In this document: in pieces, positions 6,202 to 29,611 of the stretch | Layout of the letters: each line of letters begins with the position of its first letter | Position numbering within the stretch: the first letter of the stretch is position 1 | Assembly (NCBI GenBank): GCA_947476485.1 | Contig: CANJQU010000037.1 | Location: forward strand, 1-34,888 | Direction of reading: 5' to 3' | DNA from: Chitinophagaceae bacterium | GTDB taxonomy: Bacteria > Bacteroidota > Bacteroidia > Chitinophagales > Chitinophagaceae | Length of the DNA stretch: 34,888 nucleotides | The notes under the pieces: generated by a model | Seen by the model: only the letters and a program-made list of their open reading frames with translations | The model's database searches: none | What the model was told of the DNA's origin: nothing | Translations under genes and position numbers: made by a program

Positions 6202-6666
6202 ATGTTCAAAACGCAACTATTAATTTCCGGCCTGGTACTTCTTTCATTCGTTGCCTATACACAACAGGTGAAGCAGCCATACTATTACCAGTCTGTCAAT
6301 AACCAGGACAAGACAATTGATTTTGTTTTTGGCCTGTACCCGGCAACGATCAACTATTATGAAAGCAAGGATTTCCCCCCTTACACGGCAATAAGAACAG
6401 CGGTTTTCAATAAGTCGAAAAAGGACACGCTAAAATGGAACAATTTCAAAGTGGATATACTATTAAAATCAGGTCAACTGATCAGCAATTATATCCCTTT
6501 TTCGAAAGAAAACGCTTACATATGTACTTACAAGGTCATTGCCGATTCCACGCATTACCAGTACTTCTGCTTTCATACAAAATTCTCCAATGGTGATATA
6601 GACAGAGCATGGCTGCAGATAAGTGAAGACGAGATATTTAGTCTGAACTATGAAAAAAACGAATAG
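6202..6666 (+). CDS. Secreted protein of unknown function, paralogue of the 9520-9984 product
   Basis: I do not recognise a named family. The 154-residue product begins with a clear signal peptide (MFKTQLLISGLVLLSFVAYTQ), so it should be periplasmic or surface-exposed. The body is rich in Tyr, Phe, Asn and Lys and is predicted to be mostly beta strand. It shares about half of its residues (about 75 of 153 by hand alignment) with the 154-residue protein encoded at 9520-9984. The shared parts include the YPAT/YPTS region, K-V-x-I-L-L-x-S-G, and the identical string THYQYFCFH near residue 115. The two genes bracket a sensor kinase and response regulator on the same strand, suggesting a role in that pathway (inference). 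Confidence 0.75.
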   Translation: MFKTQLLISGLVLLSFVAYTQQVKQPYYYQSVNNQDKTIDFVFGLYPATINYYESKDFPPYTAIRTAVFNKSKKDTLKWNNFKVDILLKSGQLISNYIPFSKENAYICTYKVIADSTHYQYFCFHTKFSNGDIDRAWLQISEDEIFSLNYEKNE

Positions 6667-6808
6667 TGCCACCCACTACTGGAATTGCATAGGGTTCTAT
6701 AAAAAATATCTGCAAGTAAATTAAATACGCCCGTTATTTTGTGCACCTGCTCAATATCATTTTATTTCTCCTCCGAAAAGAATATTTTTATAGGATAATC
6801 ACATTTTG

Positions 6809-8728
6809 ATGAAGGTCAAAGCCATATTAGTAATCATACTGTATTTTTTTGCCTTTAATGCCCGTGCCCAAAAAGAGGATAGTATCCTCCAGTATGGCAT
6901 CAGCCTGTATCAAAAAGGCGACTATGAACAATCGATCGCCATACTTGAAGAGAGATTGCAAACAGCGCTGAAACGAAGCGAAAAAAATGTTCAGAAGGTC
7001 ATATACAATAACCTTGGCAATAACTACAGCAACATAGGAAATACCGCAGAGGCGTTGAAAGCATACCAAAATGCGATCTCCATTGCAGAAGAACAGAATG
7101 ATAAAAAAAGCGTAGCAAAATGCACAAAGAATATAGGCGCCTTGTTTTCAGAGTCAAAGGATTTCGAAAAGGCCTTACAAAAATATACAGAGGCTGAGAA
7201 GATAGCCCTTTCTATCAATGACACCTTTACCCTTGCCGATTGCGCCAATAACAGGGGGGTGATCTATGAACAGCAGAAAAAATATGACGAAGCGCTCAAA
7301 AGCTATACCTCGGCATTGAAGCTTTATCAGCAGTTAAAAATGGACGACCGTATCGCGATCACCTATATCAACATTGGTGTTGTTTACAAATACCTTAAGG
7401 ATTATGACAAGTCTATTGAGTTTTATGAGCAATCCCTGGCCATATCGGAGAAACTCGGCGACAAGTTCATGGTGGCTGCCAATCAAGTGAATATAGGCAA
7501 TGTGTATGAGATGAAGGGCGACTATAAAAAGGCCATAGCCCTTAACGAAAAGGGCCTGCAGACGGGCAGGGAGATAAATTCCCAGGAACTCATCATGGAA
7601 GTGTATGGAAACCTGGCTGAGGATTATGCAAAAAGCGGTGACTATAAAACAGGTTTCGAGCTTTACAAAAAATACACTGCCGTTAAGGATAGTTTTATAA
7701 GTGTGGAGCGGTCGAAACAAGTGGCAGAAATGCAAACGAAGTATGAGACCGAAAAAAAGGAAAAGCAAATTATAAAACTGGAAAAAACAAGATACCAGAT
7801 GTTCGCCATTATCGGCATTATGGTGCTTGTGCTGGTGATCGCATTTTTGCTGTATAACCGTCAACAGACACTGCAGAAACAAAAACGTGAAAAAGCAATT
7901 GCAGAGGCCGAATATAATGAGCGTATGCGCATAGCCAAGGACGTACACGATGACCTGGGTTCCGGCCTTTCGAAAATATCATTGATGGCCGACATGGCGC
8001 AAAGGCGCGTAAGTGGAAATGAACAATTGGGAAGCGACATAGAAAACATTGCAGCGGTATCAAAGAAGCTTGCCGAAGTGATCGGGAACCTGCTATGGGT
8101 GAAAGACCCTGAAAACACAACAGTGAGCCACCTGACTGCAAATATGGAAAACCTCACGGCGGGCCTTTCCCAGATATCTGATGCGGCTGAAACGGCACGA
8201 AAGAAAGCAGGCGACAACATTTACCTGGGCAATGAAATAAAGCATATATCCGTGATGTCCCGCGAGCTGGTTGACAATATGCGGGATCTTATCTGGGTAT
8301 TAAACCCGGAGAACACGACATTGGAACAACTGGTAGCCCGCCTAAGGGAATATTGCAGCGACTACCTTGACGGGATGCAGGTTGATGTAATGCTTGATTT
8401 CCCTATGGATGCGCCGCACTTAAAGATATCGAGGGAAGGACAAAGGAACATTTTCCTTACCGTGAAAGAGTCCGTCAACAACAGCATAAAGCACTCAGGT
8501 ACCACGGCAATGAACATCAGTCTGAAGATCACAAAAAGCGACCTGCAGATATCCGTAGGTGATAATGGACGGGGATTTGACATAGGTAGTATCAGGAGCG
8601 GTGGCAACGGCCTCCGGAATATGAAGCAACGCATTGAATCGGTAGGTGGTAATTATGAGATCAGTTCGGTGCTGAATAAAGGAACTATCACCACAATATC
8701 CGTATTTTTAAACAGGCTGGCTGTTTAA
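6809..8728 (+). CDS. TPR-repeat sensor histidine kinase with duplicated DHp domain
   Basis: The protein (639 residues from the ATG at 6809) has a signal peptide ending near ARAQ (residue 21), about six tetratricopeptide repeats at about 25-290, a coiled coil, and one transmembrane helix at about 331-350 (IIGIMVLVLVIAFLLY). A HisKA_3-type domain follows, with phosphoacceptor His380 in KDVHDDLGSGLSKIS. The C-terminal ATPase domain has ESVNNSIKHSG (N box), GDNGRGFD and GGNGLRNMKQR. The DHp unit is tandemly duplicated: residues 380-445 and 446-511 align without gaps, share PENTT, and the second copy lacks the His. A TTG three bases upstream could also start it, but ATG is preferred. The likely partner is the regulator encoded 68 bases downstream. 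Confidence 0.92.
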   Translation: MKVKAILVIILYFFAFNARAQKEDSILQYGISLYQKGDYEQSIAILEERLQTALKRSEKNVQKVIYNNLGNNYSNIGNTAEALKAYQNAISIAEEQNDKKSVAKCTKNIGALFSESKDFEKALQKYTEAEKIALSINDTFTLADCANNRGVIYEQQKKYDEALKSYTSALKLYQQLKMDDRIAITYINIGVVYKYLKDYDKSIEFYEQSLAISEKLGDKFMVAANQVNIGNVYEMKGDYKKAIALNEKGLQTGREINSQELIMEVYGNLAEDYAKSGDYKTGFELYKKYTAVKDSFISVERSKQVAEMQTKYETEKKEKQIIKLEKTRYQMFAIIGIMVLVLVIAFLLYNRQQTLQKQKREKAIAEAEYNERMRIAKDVHDDLGSGLSKISLMADMAQRRVSGNEQLGSDIENIAAVSKKLAEVIGNLLWVKDPENTTVSHLTANMENLTAGLSQISDAAETARKKAGDNIYLGNEIKHISVMSRELVDNMRDLIWVLNPENTTLEQLVARLREYCSDYLDGMQVDVMLDFPMDAPHLKISREGQRNIFLTVKESVNNSIKHSGTTAMNISLKITKSDLQISVGDNGRGFDIGSIRSGGNGLRNMKQRIESVGGNYEISSVLNKGTITTISVFLNRLAV

Positions 8729-8796
8729 AAAATACTACTAAAGTGTAATTGACGAAAGCTGCCCTAAGGATTACTTTTACTTTTTATTCTCAGAAT

Positions 8797-9438
8797 ATGG
8801 GCACAATACGAGTTGCGATAGTAGAAGATCAGCTGCATACCCGGCAGATGCTCTCTGAGCTTATAAACGCAGCCGAGGGCTATGACTGTGTTGCCGCATT
8901 TGACAGCGCAGAGCAAGCGATAAGTGCCATTCCAGATCTGGAACCCCAGGTAGTATTGATGGATATACATATGCCCGGAGGGATGCCCGGTACAGAATGT
9001 GTGCGTGTGCTTAAGAGCCTGAAACCAGAGATAGAATTTATTATGTGCACCTCGCTGGAGGATACGGATAATATTTTTTCGGCCCTGCAGGCTGGCGCCA
9101 CCGGATACCTGGTGAAGTCGACACCGCCGGCAAAAATACTGGAGGCAATAACCGATGCCCATAATGGCGGGGCGCCCATGAGCAGCCAGATAGCCCGGAA
9201 AGTGACCAGCTACTTCTTTGCTTCAGAACGCGAAAAAAAAAATGCTGAGTTAGGGAAGTTATCGACCCGCGAGCAGGAGATCCTTGTGTACCTGTCGAAA
9301 GGATACCGTTACAAAGAGATCGCTGCATTACTGTTCATCAATATAGAAACGGTACGGAAGCATATTCACAATATATACGAGAAGCTACAGGTTAATTCGC
9401 GCACTGATGCTTTAAATAAGGTGTATCCTAAAAGTTAG
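8797..9438 (+). CDS. NarL/LuxR-family response regulator
   Basis: This DNA-binding regulator has 213 residues from the ATG at 8797. The receiver domain (about 1-125) has the acidic pair E10-D11, phosphoacceptor Asp56 in VVLMDIHMPGG, and a late Lys in TGYLVKS. A LuxR-type helix-turn-helix occupies about 155-213 (LSTREQEILVYLSKG, then INIETVRKHIHNIYEKL). It probably receives phosphate from the TPR kinase encoded just upstream. An in-frame TTG at 8749 would add 16 residues unlike the family, so the ATG is chosen. A TTGAC (8748-8752) and TACTTTTA (8772-8779) pair may give it its own promoter. Confidence 0.93.
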   Translation: MGTIRVAIVEDQLHTRQMLSELINAAEGYDCVAAFDSAEQAISAIPDLEPQVVLMDIHMPGGMPGTECVRVLKSLKPEIEFIMCTSLEDTDNIFSALQAGATGYLVKSTPPAKILEAITDAHNGGAPMSSQIARKVTSYFFASEREKKNAELGKLSTREQEILVYLSKGYRYKEIAALLFINIETVRKHIHNIYEKLQVNSRTDALNKVYPKS

Positions 9439-9519: not shown

Positions 9520-9984
9520 ATGCTAAAAAAACAATTACTACTCGCCGGCCTGATCTTACTTTCCGTATTCGCAAAAGCCCAGACAGGAAAGCCTTTTTAC
9601 TACGAGCTCATCAGCAATGAGAGCAAGAGCATCAATTTTGTGTTTGGCTTCTATCCTACAAGCTACGCCTATAATGAGACCAAGGATGTGGACGGATTTA
9701 CGAGTATCAAGGGCGCAGTCATCAACAATTCAAAAGACCGGTTGCATTGGTTAGACTATAAAGTAAACATCCTGTTAAGATCGGGCAAGCTGCTGAGAAG
9801 TTATACTACCGTTGCGAAGGATGGCGATTACCAGTGCAACTATAACGTTGAAGGCAGCGCGACCCACTACCAGTACTTCTGTTTTCATAACAAGTTTACC
9901 AACGATGATATAGACAAAGTGTGGCTGGTAATGGGCGACGACCAGATTTTCGGTCTTCTGTACGATAAAAATGATACCAAATAG
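9520..9984 (+). CDS. Secreted protein of unknown function, paralogue of the 6202-6666 product
   Basis: The product has 154 residues with a signal peptide (MLKKQLLLAGLILLSVFAKAQ). No named family is recognised. It is about 50% identical by hand alignment to the 6202-6666 product, with only two one-residue gaps in the body. The shared core includes INFVFG/IDFVFG, YKVNILLRSGKL versus FKVDILLKSGQL, the identical THYQYFCFH, and DDIDKVWL versus GDIDRAWL. A single Cys near residue 106 and one in FCFH are conserved in both. It follows the LuxR-type regulator gene by 81 bases. One copy may be an output and the other an input of the pathway (inference). Confidence 0.75.
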   Translation: MLKKQLLLAGLILLSVFAKAQTGKPFYYELISNESKSINFVFGFYPTSYAYNETKDVDGFTSIKGAVINNSKDRLHWLDYKVNILLRSGKLLRSYTTVAKDGDYQCNYNVEGSATHYQYFCFHNKFTNDDIDKVWLVMGDDQIFGLLYDKNDTK

Positions 9985-19334: not shown

Positions 19335-20636
19335 TCAGGCGGCCAGGCCAAACTCATCCTTTTTCTCAGCCGGTATCCTCGCCGATTGCGACAGCCTCAT
19401 AACATCAGCCAATATCATACACCACACAATAATGCACGGAACCGCCTTTATTTTATATACATATATAAAATGAGTTTTCACATACATGGGGAATACGTCT
19501 GTTGTGGCCAGGCAGGTAAATACGAAAACGAGCCAGAATAAAACGGTCCTCCATTTAGCCGACGGCATTGCAAAATACCAGATCGCCACACCGGCCACGG
19601 CAATAATAAATGTAGAAGACTCTGCCTTGTGGTTGAAAATAATGACCCACACCAGCATTGACGCAAGCACGAGTAACCTGAAAACCTGGTTGCTGTACAT
19701 TTTAAAACGGACAAAGGGCAGCAGGAATAAACCCATTCCGATCAGGGTCACGTACATCTTTACATTCTCAATGCCAAACCAGCTATAGAGCCAACCGGCG
19801 ACAGACAACCCACGCGCCGCAGCGGCATCTGCGATCATCAGGTTAGCCCAGTTCTGATACTGCCATACAAGTGTTTGAGGCGACGTAACCAATAGCGGCA
19901 GCGCAGCAAAGACGACGGTCCACAAAATGGAATACAAAATGAATTTAAACTTGCCCGGATAAAAAAGGAAGAAACAAAAACCGATGGCGCCATACACTTT
20001 AATATACATGGCAAGCACAAGCCAAAGCGTAGCCAGGACTACTTTCTTGTGTTCCATGCACCCGTAGGCAGCTATGATCAGTCCGCACATAAGACCGTTG
20101 CTCTGGTTGTTCTGGAGGCAGGTAAGCAGTTCCAGTGCAACGAACCATAAAATAAGACATTGTTTTCTGACACTGAAGGGCAGCAAACGGATAGCAAAGA
20201 ATACTGCTATGGCATTGAGTATATTCCATATCGAGAGGCCAATAACGTCCGGCAGGTAAGCGATACCACCCATAAATAAAGCAAAAGTGGGACTATACTT
20301 ATAAAAATCCCAATGCTCTGCGGGGTATAATCCATACAGATCGGTGCCATGAATAAGGTGAAACCAGGAATACTTGAAAATGACGTAGTTATTGTATTCT
20401 GTAAGCTGCCGGCCTATGAACTGGTTCATATATTCCGGCTTGTTCATTATATCTGCCGGAAATACCTTGGGCATGTGAAACATGTGCGTGCCCAATAATA
20501 TCCCCTGTACAGAAGCGATAATGGCCGCAGCAACAAACACAACCAGCAATGTGCCTGGTTTGAACAGTATGGCCCTTATTTTCTGAAGCATTGAATTGAT
20601 ATAACAGGCTAAAAGTACAGTTATACCTTTACTCAT
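19335..20636 (-). CDS. GT87-type (DUF2029) integral membrane protein, second of two
   Basis: A 433-residue polytopic membrane protein with about ten hydrophobic helices. The HWDFYKYSPTFALFMG, WNILNAIAVFF and NNQSNGLMCGLIIAA stretches match glycosyltransferase family 87 / DUF2029 proteins, which use polyprenyl-phosphate sugars on the outer side of the inner membrane. The exact sugar and acceptor are unknown. It is a paralogue of the gene just upstream. The ATGA overlap at 20633-20636 with that gene points to coupled translation; an internal start at MLQKIRAIL (16th residue) is possible. Confidence 0.75.
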   Translation of the reverse strand: MSKGITVLLACYINSMLQKIRAILFKPGTLLVVFVAAAIIASVQGILLGTHMFHMPKVFPADIMNKPEYMNQFIGRQLTEYNNYVIFKYSWFHLIHGTDLYGLYPAEHWDFYKYSPTFALFMGGIAYLPDVIGLSIWNILNAIAVFFAIRLLPFSVRKQCLILWFVALELLTCLQNNQSNGLMCGLIIAAYGCMEHKKVVLATLWLVLAMYIKVYGAIGFCFFLFYPGKFKFILYSILWTVVFAALPLLVTSPQTLVWQYQNWANLMIADAAAARGLSVAGWLYSWFGIENVKMYVTLIGMGLFLLPFVRFKMYSNQVFRLLVLASMLVWVIIFNHKAESSTFIIAVAGVAIWYFAMPSAKWRTVLFWLVFVFTCLATTDVFPMYVKTHFIYVYKIKAVPCIIVWCMILADVMRLSQSARIPAEKKDEFGLAA

Positions 20637-21859
20637 CCAACAATGAACGCAGAAGTTTGGCCCGGATGACTTTGTTTCCTCATCGTCATGAGTTCAAACC
20701 AGGTGATGCACCACACCAGGATACACGGTACGGCCTTTATGGCATAGGGTACAAAAAAATGATCAATAAGATATGGAGAGAAAAGGTCAGTTGGCGATAA
20801 GCAGGTAAAAATAAACACGAGCGCCATTGCCATCATCTGTCCCTTTTTCATAAAGACACCCGATGCACCCGCGGATCGCGCAAAATACCATACCCCTACC
20901 CCGGCAACAGCTATGATATAAGTAGGCGATTCGGCCATATGGCTGAAAATGACGACCCATATGAGCATTGATGCCAGTATGCGCATTCTGAACAACGGAT
21001 CATTATACAGACTCCGTCTGCCGAACGGCAACAGGAACAAAACAATACCTGCTACACTCACTATCCCCTTCCCGATGGTAATGCCAAACCAGGTATGCAG
21101 CCACCCCATCACCGACAAGCCACAACGAATTGACTGATCCTCCAGCAACACATCACCCCAGTTACCATACTGCCATACAAGCGTCTGAACCGGCAGCACG
21201 CCAAGCGGTAGTAAAGCAAATATCAACGTCCACACGATAGTGTATCCGGCGAATTTTATTTTACCAGGATAGAAGAGAACCAGGCACAAGCCTATTCCTC
21301 CATACACTTTAATAAATGTGGCTATCACAATGCACAAAGTTGCCACGCCGACCCGCCGGCGTTCCATGCATGCAAATGCTGCGATCATAAGACCCGCAAC
21401 GAGACCATTGCTCTGTGCATTTTGAACCGAGGTTAACATCTCAACCAAAACAAACCAAAACAGCAGACTCATCTTTTCCTTCTTCATAGGCAGCAGGCGT
21501 ACGGCCGAAAAGAAAACAATAACGTTCAGCAGGTTCCAGGTACAAAGCCCTACAACATCCGGCAAATAAGCAAAGGCAGACATGGCAAGCGCAAATGCAG
21601 GACTGTACTTAAACCGATCCCACTGCTCGGATGGAAAGGACGCGTAGAGGTTTTTACCATCAACCAGGTGGAAAAAGGATTGACGGAAAATGATGTAATT
21701 ATTGTAATCGGTATAGACGAAGTCGCCGCAGGCGTGGGTGCCAATGATCACCGATTGAATGCTCGCTGCAATAGCAACGATTACGTAAACAGCTAAAAGA
21801 GTGCGCTGATTCTGAAGCAAGCCGCGGGCAGCCGGCCGCCAGGCAGAGGAGTTCAACAT
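20633..21859 (-). CDS. GT87-type (DUF2029) integral membrane protein, first of two
   Basis: A 408-residue polytopic membrane protein and tandem paralogue of the next gene. The pair shares YNNYIIF/YNNYVIF, FFHLVDGKNLY/WFHLIHGTDLY, WDRFKYSPAFAL/WDFYKYSPTFAL, the central NAQSNGL/NNQSNGL and AIKAVPCILVWC/KIKAVPCIIVWC. The family (GT87/DUF2029) transfers sugars from polyprenyl-phosphate donors. It begins 111 bases after the thiolase stop on the same strand, with an inverted repeat in that gap, so transcription may be separate. Confidence 0.75.
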   Translation of the reverse strand: MLNSSAWRPAARGLLQNQRTLLAVYVIVAIAASIQSVIIGTHACGDFVYTDYNNYIIFRQSFFHLVDGKNLYASFPSEQWDRFKYSPAFALAMSAFAYLPDVVGLCTWNLLNVIVFFSAVRLLPMKKEKMSLLFWFVLVEMLTSVQNAQSNGLVAGLMIAAFACMERRRVGVATLCIVIATFIKVYGGIGLCLVLFYPGKIKFAGYTIVWTLIFALLPLGVLPVQTLVWQYGNWGDVLLEDQSIRCGLSVMGWLHTWFGITIGKGIVSVAGIVLFLLPFGRRSLYNDPLFRMRILASMLIWVVIFSHMAESPTYIIAVAGVGVWYFARSAGASGVFMKKGQMMAMALVFIFTCLSPTDLFSPYLIDHFFVPYAIKAVPCILVWCITWFELMTMRKQSHPGQTSAFIVG

Positions 21860-28051: not shown

Positions 28052-29611
28052 ATGAGCAAACAAGGGGAAATACTATGGGTGGATGACGAAATTGACTCAC
28101 TGAAGTCACAAATACTCTTCCTGAAAAATAAAGGTTATGAAGTCACACCACTCAGTAATGGCCACGATGCGCTCGAATTATTGAAAGACAAGATAGTTGA
28201 TGTAGTGCTGCTGGATGAGAGCATGCCAGGCCTTACCGGACTGGAAACACTTGCCAAAATCAAAGAAATGCTGCCGCAGCTTCCCGTGGTAATGATCACC
28301 AAGAATGAGGCCGAAAACATAATGGAAGACGCTCTGGGCGCGCAGATAACCGACTATCTCATCAAGCCGGTCAATCCAAACCAGGTGCTGCTTTCCCTCA
28401 AAAAAATAATGGATGGCAAAAGGCTGGTTTCTGAAAAGACAACCACTGCCTACCAGCAGGACTTCCGTAACCTCTTCATGGCACTGAGCTCAAACCCCAA
28501 TCACGAGGAGTGGAAAGAACTATACAAGAAGCTCGTGTACTGGGAGCTGGAAATGGACAAGAGCAACAGTGAGGAAATGATGGAAGTGCTGCAATCGCAA
28601 AAGACCGAGGCGAACACAGAGTTCTTCAAATACATCTCCAAAAACTACGCAAACTGGATCAAAGACAATGGCGATCAGGGCCCTCTGATGTCTCACAAGG
28701 TGTTTGAGAAAAAAGTGGCCCCGTTTCTTAAACAGGGTAAGCCAACGTTCTTAGTAGTAGTAGATAATCTTCGTCTCGATCATTTTAAGGCCATTCAACC
28801 TGTACTTTCTGAATCGCTTCGTATAGTAGACGAAGACCAGTTTTACAGCATCTTACCTACTGCAACCCAGTATTGCCGCAACGCTATATTTGCCGGCATG
28901 CTGCCAATAGATATAGCGGCACACTTCCCGCTGGAATGGAAAAACGACGACGAAGAAGGCGGCAAGAACCTTCACGAAGAGAAGTTCCTGAGAAACCAGC
29001 TAAAGCACCTGAAACTGGACCACCTCAAAACACAGTACATAAAGATCACCAACAACGAAGACGCCAAGTCGATGGAAGACAATATCCACAACTGTCTATC
29101 GAACGACCTCACTGTGATCGTCTACAACTTTGTGGATATGCTATCGCATGCGCGCACCGAAATGGAGGTGCTGAAAGAACTGGCAGGGGATGAAATATCG
29201 TACCGCTCGCTTGTTGTGAGCTGGTTCGAACATTCGCCGCTGCACAGGGCACTGCGCAAGATAGCCGACAAAAATATCCAGGTGCTGCTGACCACAGACC
29301 ATGGCAGCACACGTGTGAAGACCCCGAGCAAGTGCGTAGGCGATCGTGCCACAACTGCCAACCTGCGCTACAAACATGGCCGTAACCTTCAGTACGAAGA
29401 ACGCGACGTGCTCGCCTTCCGCGACCCAAAGTTCGCGGGATTGCCAAGGCCTAATGTCAGCTCCACATTCATTTTTGCCAAGGGCGATGTGTTCCTATGC
29501 TACCCAAATAACTACAACCATTTTGTGAACTATTATAAGAACACCTTTCAGCATGGCGGCATATCGCTGGAGGAAATGATAGTACCCGTGGTGCGGCTGG
29601 AGAGCAAGTAA
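28052..29611 (+). CDS. porX: PorX-type response regulator with PglZ domain
   Basis: PorX is a response regulator that controls type IX secretion genes in Bacteroidota through a receiver domain fused to an alkaline-phosphatase-like PglZ domain. The 519-residue product matches: receiver at about 1-120 (VDDEIDSLK; phosphoacceptor Asp55 in VVLLDESMPGLTG; Lys in LIKPVNPNQ), then a helical linker and a PglZ domain with FLVVVDNLRLDHFKAIQP, ILPTATQYCRNAIFAG, and the metal site TTDHGSTRVKTPS. It has no adjacent histidine kinase, as is usual for porX. Confidence 0.93.
   Translation: MSKQGEILWVDDEIDSLKSQILFLKNKGYEVTPLSNGHDALELLKDKIVDVVLLDESMPGLTGLETLAKIKEMLPQLPVVMITKNEAENIMEDALGAQITDYLIKPVNPNQVLLSLKKIMDGKRLVSEKTTTAYQQDFRNLFMALSSNPNHEEWKELYKKLVYWELEMDKSNSEEMMEVLQSQKTEANTEFFKYISKNYANWIKDNGDQGPLMSHKVFEKKVAPFLKQGKPTFLVVVDNLRLDHFKAIQPVLSESLRIVDEDQFYSILPTATQYCRNAIFAGMLPIDIAAHFPLEWKNDDEEGGKNLHEEKFLRNQLKHLKLDHLKTQYIKITNNEDAKSMEDNIHNCLSNDLTVIVYNFVDMLSHARTEMEVLKELAGDEISYRSLVVSWFEHSPLHRALRKIADKNIQVLLTTDHGSTRVKTPSKCVGDRATTANLRYKHGRNLQYEERDVLAFRDPKFAGLPRPNVSSTFIFAKGDVFLCYPNNYNHFVNYYKNTFQHGGISLEEMIVPVVRLESK

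Follow-up and report, generated by a model that had tools for sequence, protein, structure and literature searches.

Can a sensor histidine kinase stand in for its own partner by carrying the helical hairpin of its dimerisation and phosphoacceptor (DHp) domain twice in one chain? The question is raised by a gene in the stretch of DNA analysed here, a window of 34,888 nucleotides from a Chitinophagaceae bacterium. The prevailing view, as given in PMC10359499, is that typical sensor kinases depend for their regulation on a dimer joined through the DHp, and the doubled kinase, its single-DHp kin and a chimera-like relative (L057, see below) lend themselves to testing whether an arrangement inside one chain can take over from DHp pairing. 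The protein of 640 amino acids is encoded by one open frame (6806-8728, forward strand) containing both repeat units. Its start codon is TTG at 6806 and the following codon is ATG at 6809, so that the phosphoacceptor His is residue 381 or 380 according to the start. The features concerned are the following:

6806..8728, forward strand: TPR-type sensor histidine kinase with tandem DHp units (open frame; Pfam TPR, HisKA_3 and HATPase_c)
6875..7705, forward strand: TPR sensor region, residues ~24-300 (Pfam TPR_12 at 1.7e-41 and others; limits approximate)
7799..7945, forward strand: hydrophobic, transmembrane-like stretch and helix into the DHp, residues ~332-380 (translation read by eye)
7946..8143, forward strand: DHp unit 1 with the phosphoacceptor His at 7946-7948 (translation, BLASTP, Pfam; helix 1 conserved and helix 2 degenerate in relatives)
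8096..8122, forward strand: WVKDPENTT, the inner of the two W-P motif copies (intact in the window alone of the four species)
8144..8341, forward strand: DHp unit 2, a pseudo-DHp with Met for His (translation, BLASTP, Pfam; helix 1 degenerate)
8342..8713, forward strand: catalytic ATP-binding (CA) region, residues ~513-636 (HATPase_c at 3.8e-9 over 548-633; alignments)
8749..9438, forward strand: NarL/LuxR-type response regulator, 20 bases downstream of the kinase (Response_reg at 1.3e-22, GerE at 8.9e-15)

Pfam recognised TPR families in the first half of the kinase, HisKA_3 as two stretches (E up to 1) and HATPase_c, the last with N and G boxes and 37.4 bits against a cut-off of 26.4. The boxes of the CA region read KESVNNSIKHS, DNGRGFD and GNGLRNM, and residues K203, E204, N208, D235, G237, G239, N250, G251 and N254 (model numbering) are invariant in an alignment of 36 rows. 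The protein is a HisKA_3 kinase by virtue of its first unit, which lies above the Pfam cut-off and carries His381.

The original prediction described two gapless tandem units of 66 residues (7946-8143 and 8144-8341) with 25 of 66 residues identical, and translation and alignment confirmed this. It also placed the phosphoacceptor in unit 1 and a Met at the same place in unit 2, and indeed the codons are CAC at 7946-7948 and ATG at 8144-8146. A chance resemblance of the units was ruled out by BLASTP of one against the other (53.1 bits and E 1e-16 in this single comparison, over 64 of the 66 residues) and by shuffling, the ungapped score of 129 being reached by 0 of 100,000 shuffles of unit 2, the best of which scored 39. 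At the level of DNA the units match at 105 of 198 bases and the repeat must be old, because only 8 of the 25 identical residues keep a common codon. The shared residues are mostly written with different codons and the layout occurs in three further genomes; on these grounds recent events (a duplication, or gene conversion of the W-P motif) and an assembly artefact were rejected as well. A Pfam HisKA_3 search on both halves, the check proposed for the copying of a domain, succeeded for unit 1 with a short flank (37.4 bits, cut-off 24) and failed for unit 2 (16.9 bits), whose match covers profile positions 17-66 only; the missing positions 1-16 carry the phosphoacceptor. Taken alone, unit 2 is not a HisKA_3 domain, being below the cut-off and having Met for His, and a HisKA_3 search of the window's genome reported unit 1 alone for this gene and no unit 2. 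Pseudo-DHp units are rare: His is absent in 0.3% of HisKA_3 domains (56 of 16,025), according to the accessible part of PMC12632262.

A scan of one genome per species yielded 40 homologous loci, and by alignment with the window the extra segment is present in three of them (L050, L051 and L052) and absent in 37; the His and the Trp of the IWV motif lie 105-116 residues apart in these three and 48-60 apart in the 37. Retention in homologues, on which the original prediction had staked the repeat, was thus observed for 3 of the 40 loci and not for the other 37. Among 35 genomes of the genus the long form occurs once each in at least four (the window's own, G005, G001 and G023, the matches in the last three having the coordinates or sequences of L050-L052), a lower bound since 10 of the 35 are less than 90% complete or more than 5% contaminated and a TPR-kinase fragment in G006 (L133) is cut off by a contig end. 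A model of the DHp unit gave 88 matches in the same 35 genomes, with neighbouring pairs in one open frame only in the four known genes. The sequences behind this model included unit 2 of three of the four carriers, and it detects near kin only: in the window's genome it gave 5 matches where the Pfam model gave 10. Of the 75 model positions, the last one matched by the first unit is 53-59 in the three relatives and 75 in the window. When 396 genomes sampled from the order were searched with a model of the doubled stretch, the one genome with a match was that of the window (E 1e-18); the other three carriers were evidently absent from this sample. A widespread tandem-DHp family was not found for near kin of this unit in the 35 genus and 396 order genomes. 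Viral contigs yielded no relative, and none of the 311 plasmid records with a match covered 80% of the protein.

The four doubled kinases group as one clade (support 100/99) in a tree built from the shared helix-2 and CA region; the 51 rows of this tree omit five of 15 single-unit loci, four of them repeats of L053, L054, L056 and L057 and one a contig-end fragment. The layout is therefore inherited, being found in 4 of the 35 genus genomes and in a single clade, and a HisKA_3 sensor kinase with a doubled DHp has so far been seen in this small clade. As L053 and L054 are named Flavipsychrobacter, the genus concerned is probably Flavipsychrobacter. Two details of the window proved not to be general. 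The equal length of the units is one, the extra stretch having 66 residues in the window and 66, 55 and 63 in the other species, and the shared LxWVxxPENTT is the other, the unit 1 motif being whole in the window alone of the four species. The inner W-P motif is altered in L050, and the inner part has lost 11 residues in L051 and three in L052.

The distribution of these changes along the chain is uneven. For unit 1, the six pairwise comparisons of the four doubled kinases give identities of 84-96% in helix 1 and 23-48% in helix 2, followed by 32-60% in helix 1 of unit 2 and 84-96% in its helix 2, the conserved helix that runs to LIWVLNPENTT and adjoins the CA region; the first link has 0-29%, the link after unit 2 86-100% and the CA region 62-76%. 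Comparison with 15 single-DHp kinases (16 minus L058, which was cut at the wrong HDD) gave the same partition: for helix 1, unit 1 is nearer than unit 2 to the single kinases in 15 of 15, and for helix 2, unit 2 is nearer than unit 1, also in 15 of 15. Because helix 1 is best in unit 1 and helix 2 in unit 2, we conclude that an ordinary DHp is split between the units and that the inner hairpin is the surplus. Compared as whole units, unit 2 is closer to the single kinases in 13 cases, tied in 1 and behind in 1, and the nearest single kinases of both units are L053 and L054 (36 and 35 of 66 residues for unit 1, 43 and 43 for unit 2). The claim of a copied HisKA_3 domain holds insofar as a whole HisKA_3-sized unit is doubled, the second without phosphoacceptor, but the arrangement is not an intact DHp followed by its copy. 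The possibility that unit 2 would align better with the linker of ordinary kinases was ruled out, since helix 2 of single kinases is matched better by the second helix of unit 2 than by that of unit 1.

We tentatively favour, at slightly less than an even chance, an explanation in which the working DHp consists of the outer helices, with the inner hairpin as a non-catalytic pseudo-DHp packed in the bundle, where it replaces the helices of the second protomer; on this view a single doubling of the DHp hairpin would have taken place, in the ancestor from which a small clade in one genus of Bacteroidota descends. Phosphate from ATP on the CA domain would be transferred to His381 of unit 1 and from there to the adjacent LuxR-type regulator, for which the two outer helices would form the docking site; the inner hairpin would pack beside these helices in the way the second protomer's helices do in an ordinary DHp dimer. 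The conservation of the outer helices and degeneracy of the inner ones, the loss of the docking residue in unit 2 and the four predicted helices all argue for it.

The inner hairpin evolves fast, which brings in a serious rival, on balance unlikely: that the doubled segment is a neutral insert, tolerated and decaying without function, while the outer helices still form an ordinary DHp dimer. The dN of residues 406-471 (inner) is 0.29-0.82 against 0.02-0.14 in the two outer stretches, and dN/dS in the first inner helix rises to 0.91 and 0.95 in two pairs, dS not being computable in many pairs. Decay would also fit the inner deletions of L051 (11 residues) and L052 (3), the loss of the inner W-P motif in three of the four species and the existence of L057, whose sensor half is 82% like those of L050 and L051 and which lacks the doubling. 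A purely neutral segment is harder to reconcile with a frame that stays intact in four species, the AsnRS of the window and of G023 being 87% identical, with inner columns A-G-L, I, A, A and L, I, S, L that are invariant in the four doubled kinases, and with a dN below dS over the whole inner stretch in 4 of 6 pairs, those for which dS could be computed. The core positions of the inner helices (those hydrophobic in single kinases) were compared with the others: the invariance test, whose outcome suits neutral decay, was not significant (4 of 12 positions invariant versus 9 of 35 others, p 0.71), and all-hydrophobic positions numbered 6 of 12 versus 6 of 35 others, a borderline p of 0.05. From these alignments, selection for the packing of the inner helices appears weakly supported, which counts against the pseudo-DHp explanation as well.

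Structure prediction by AlphaFold was run with 36 rows (36 of 41, the near-copies L066, L077, L081, L082 and L086 omitted) and gave a mean pLDDT of 82, a pTM of 0.62 and four separate helices at 2-51 (including the input helix), 58-79, 89-117 and 124-148, the helix before the DHp beginning at model residue 2. In the 36-row alignment the single kinases are matched to the outer helices, which biases the prediction towards pairing of these two. With the four sequences alone, the pLDDT was 66 and the first two helices merged into one long helix. The Foldseek list for the model was headed by DesK chains with poor whole-model alignment (rmsd ~10-17), and DesK is also the nearest solved structure by sequence. 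The inner hairpin and the outer helices may fold as an intrachain pseudo-dimer. The pTM of 0.62 and the low pLDDT and merged helices of the four-sequence model weigh against our favoured explanation.

The input helix bears on whether chains still pair. Residues 320-370 are 86-92% identical among the window, L050 and L051 and 65-67% identical between these and L052, and the single-DHp kinase L057 is 90% identical to the window over residues 321-360 and 85% over 361-400. An input helix so little changed with respect to L057 suggests that ordinary pairing through it may persist, a point against the pseudo-DHp explanation. The nearness of the transmembrane-like stretch and input helix to those of L057 would rather suit an extended dimer, in which two chains would go on pairing while the extra hairpin supplied another layer of helices acting as spacer, clamp or second interface, as the original prediction had it; the 36-row model, which predicts both units as hairpins, is compatible with it. 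We nevertheless consider this arrangement improbable, since two complete bundles would need both inner helices, one from each unit, and these are precisely the fast-changing ones. Somewhat less doubtful, though still unlikely, is an internalised dimer interface, with a one-chain pseudo-dimeric bundle, one live site and DHp pairing no longer required; helix 1 of unit 1 would then face the CA domain carried by unit 2, in a trans-like geometry within one chain. On whether HisKA_3 (DesK-type) kinases phosphorylate in cis or in trans, no answer was found in the literature passages available to us.

Residue differences between the units also count in favour of the pseudo-DHp explanation. At the place of the His, unit 2 of the four species has M, V, I and L. 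Unit position 13 (His+12) is hydrophobic in 31 of 31 single kinases with an ungapped unit (31 of 47) and is L/M/L/L in unit 1 of the doubled kinases and D/Q/Q/K in unit 2. In the accessible part of PMC5231405, Leu200 of DesK (His188+12) enters a pocket of DesR, and unit position 13 is taken as the regulator-docking place because His+12 equals the position of this Leu200. The same source, as far as available, describes DesR as sitting mainly on helix 1 of one DesK protomer and touching helix 2 of the second to a minor extent; the outer helices would correspond to this docking pair if the chain folds as a pseudo-dimer. The HDxxxQ phosphatase motif, with Gln at its final place (PMC6798134, in the portion available), is absent from the four doubled kinases, which read HDDLGS; unlike HDxxxQ kinases, that of the window has Ser at the Gln place of unit 1. 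This place holds S in 28, A in 8, P in 2 and G in 2 of the 40 homologous loci and never Q, so that the missing Gln does not set the doubled kinases apart, the whole group being without it.

The surroundings of the gene are partly conserved. In the window, L050 and L052 the kinase gene follows asnS and the regulator lies behind the kinase, and the stretch of L051 examined contains kinase, regulator, BrxC and MATE genes. The response regulator also adjoins the kinase in loci L050-L059, and the adjacent LuxR-type regulator is likely the partner of the doubled kinase. The same locus is occupied in L057 by a single-DHp TPR kinase and in L053 and L054 by a kinase that is 1026-1028 codons long and combines a different sensor with a single DHp. 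In G004, the nearest species by AsnRS (97%), no match to kinase or regulator was found at E 1e-8 in the stretch from the AsnRS and 154-aa genes to BrxC (L131), nor any kinase match at 1e-30 in the genome. The kinase-regulator pair of the window is flanked by genes for paralogous 154-aa proteins (6202-6666 and 9520-9984) with no Pfam match at E 1, and relatives of this protein occupy the same locus in several members of the genus.

The L057 kinase (G020) looks like a natural chimera, with sensor, transmembrane-like stretch and input helix as in the doubled kinases, a kinase half and a regulator unlike theirs, and the changeover near the His. Its identity to L050 and L051 is 59-70% over the first 40 residues, 78-92% over 41-400, 80-82% over 481-520 and 30-50% beyond 521 (521-640), and its regulator is 48% identical to that of the window over 79 aa. 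The L057 sensor, 82% like those of L050 and L051, groups with both (90/95, on a branch not starred), in a TPR-only tree that has no starred branch and in which L045 is a very long branch. Judging from these sequences, kinase halves and regulators seem to have been exchanged at the asnS-linked locus, and in L057 the doubling was either lost in an exchange or never present. An exchange of this kind might also have created the repeat, by illegitimate recombination of two kinases of the family and not by tandem duplication in place, with the same protein architecture as a result. The half-exchange near the His that L057 suggests (78-92% over residues 41-400, 30-50% over 521-640, and another regulator) would be a parallel; this origin is nonetheless improbable, since L053 and L054 are the closest single kinases for both units and the signal is too small to place unit 1 elsewhere.

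Among known systems, the closest are DesK of Bacillus subtilis and other kinases with HisKA_3 and HATPase_c, which are alike in the phosphoacceptor helix, the hairpin DHp, the CA boxes and the LuxR-type partner; the window kinase differs from them by two DHp units per chain, the second without His and docking residue. The single-DHp TPR kinases L057/G020, L038/G030 and L045/G024, all three after asnS, and L055 share the TPR-type sensor, the core and the downstream regulator but not the extra 55-66 residues, and the sensor of L045 is only ~30% like the others. EL346, an HWE kinase kept monomeric by its LOV domain on the DHp face and the one exclusive monomer named in the accessible part of PMC10359499, would show that a kinase can function without DHp pairing, a parallel that depends on the pseudo-dimer reading being right. 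EL346 belongs to another DHp family and, in the same part of that source, has no doubled DHp; the window kinase combines HisKA_3 with a TPR sensor and not HWE/HisKA_2 with LOV, and is thus not of the EL346 type. Fungal group XII hybrid kinases share tandem duplication within a chain, with the complete hybrid kinase machinery doubled there (PMC8510515, as far as accessible) versus the DHp alone here. The term "tandem DHp" in the available text of PMC3899027 denotes a DHp followed by a CA and no doubled DHp, and the two DHp domains in the available parts of PMC11371814 and PMC9289397 are those of a dimer. We recognised no report of a doubled DHp alone in the accessible parts of the open-access literature (most subscription journals being outside this scope), including those of PMC5812335, PMC4867686, PMC10663231 and PMC3510030.

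Elsewhere in the window, two adjacent genes for GT87 glycosyltransferases (19335-20636 and 20633-21859, reverse strand) overlap by four bases. Another gene (28052-29611) joins a receiver domain of response regulators to a PglZ domain, a layout known from PorX of Bacteroidota.
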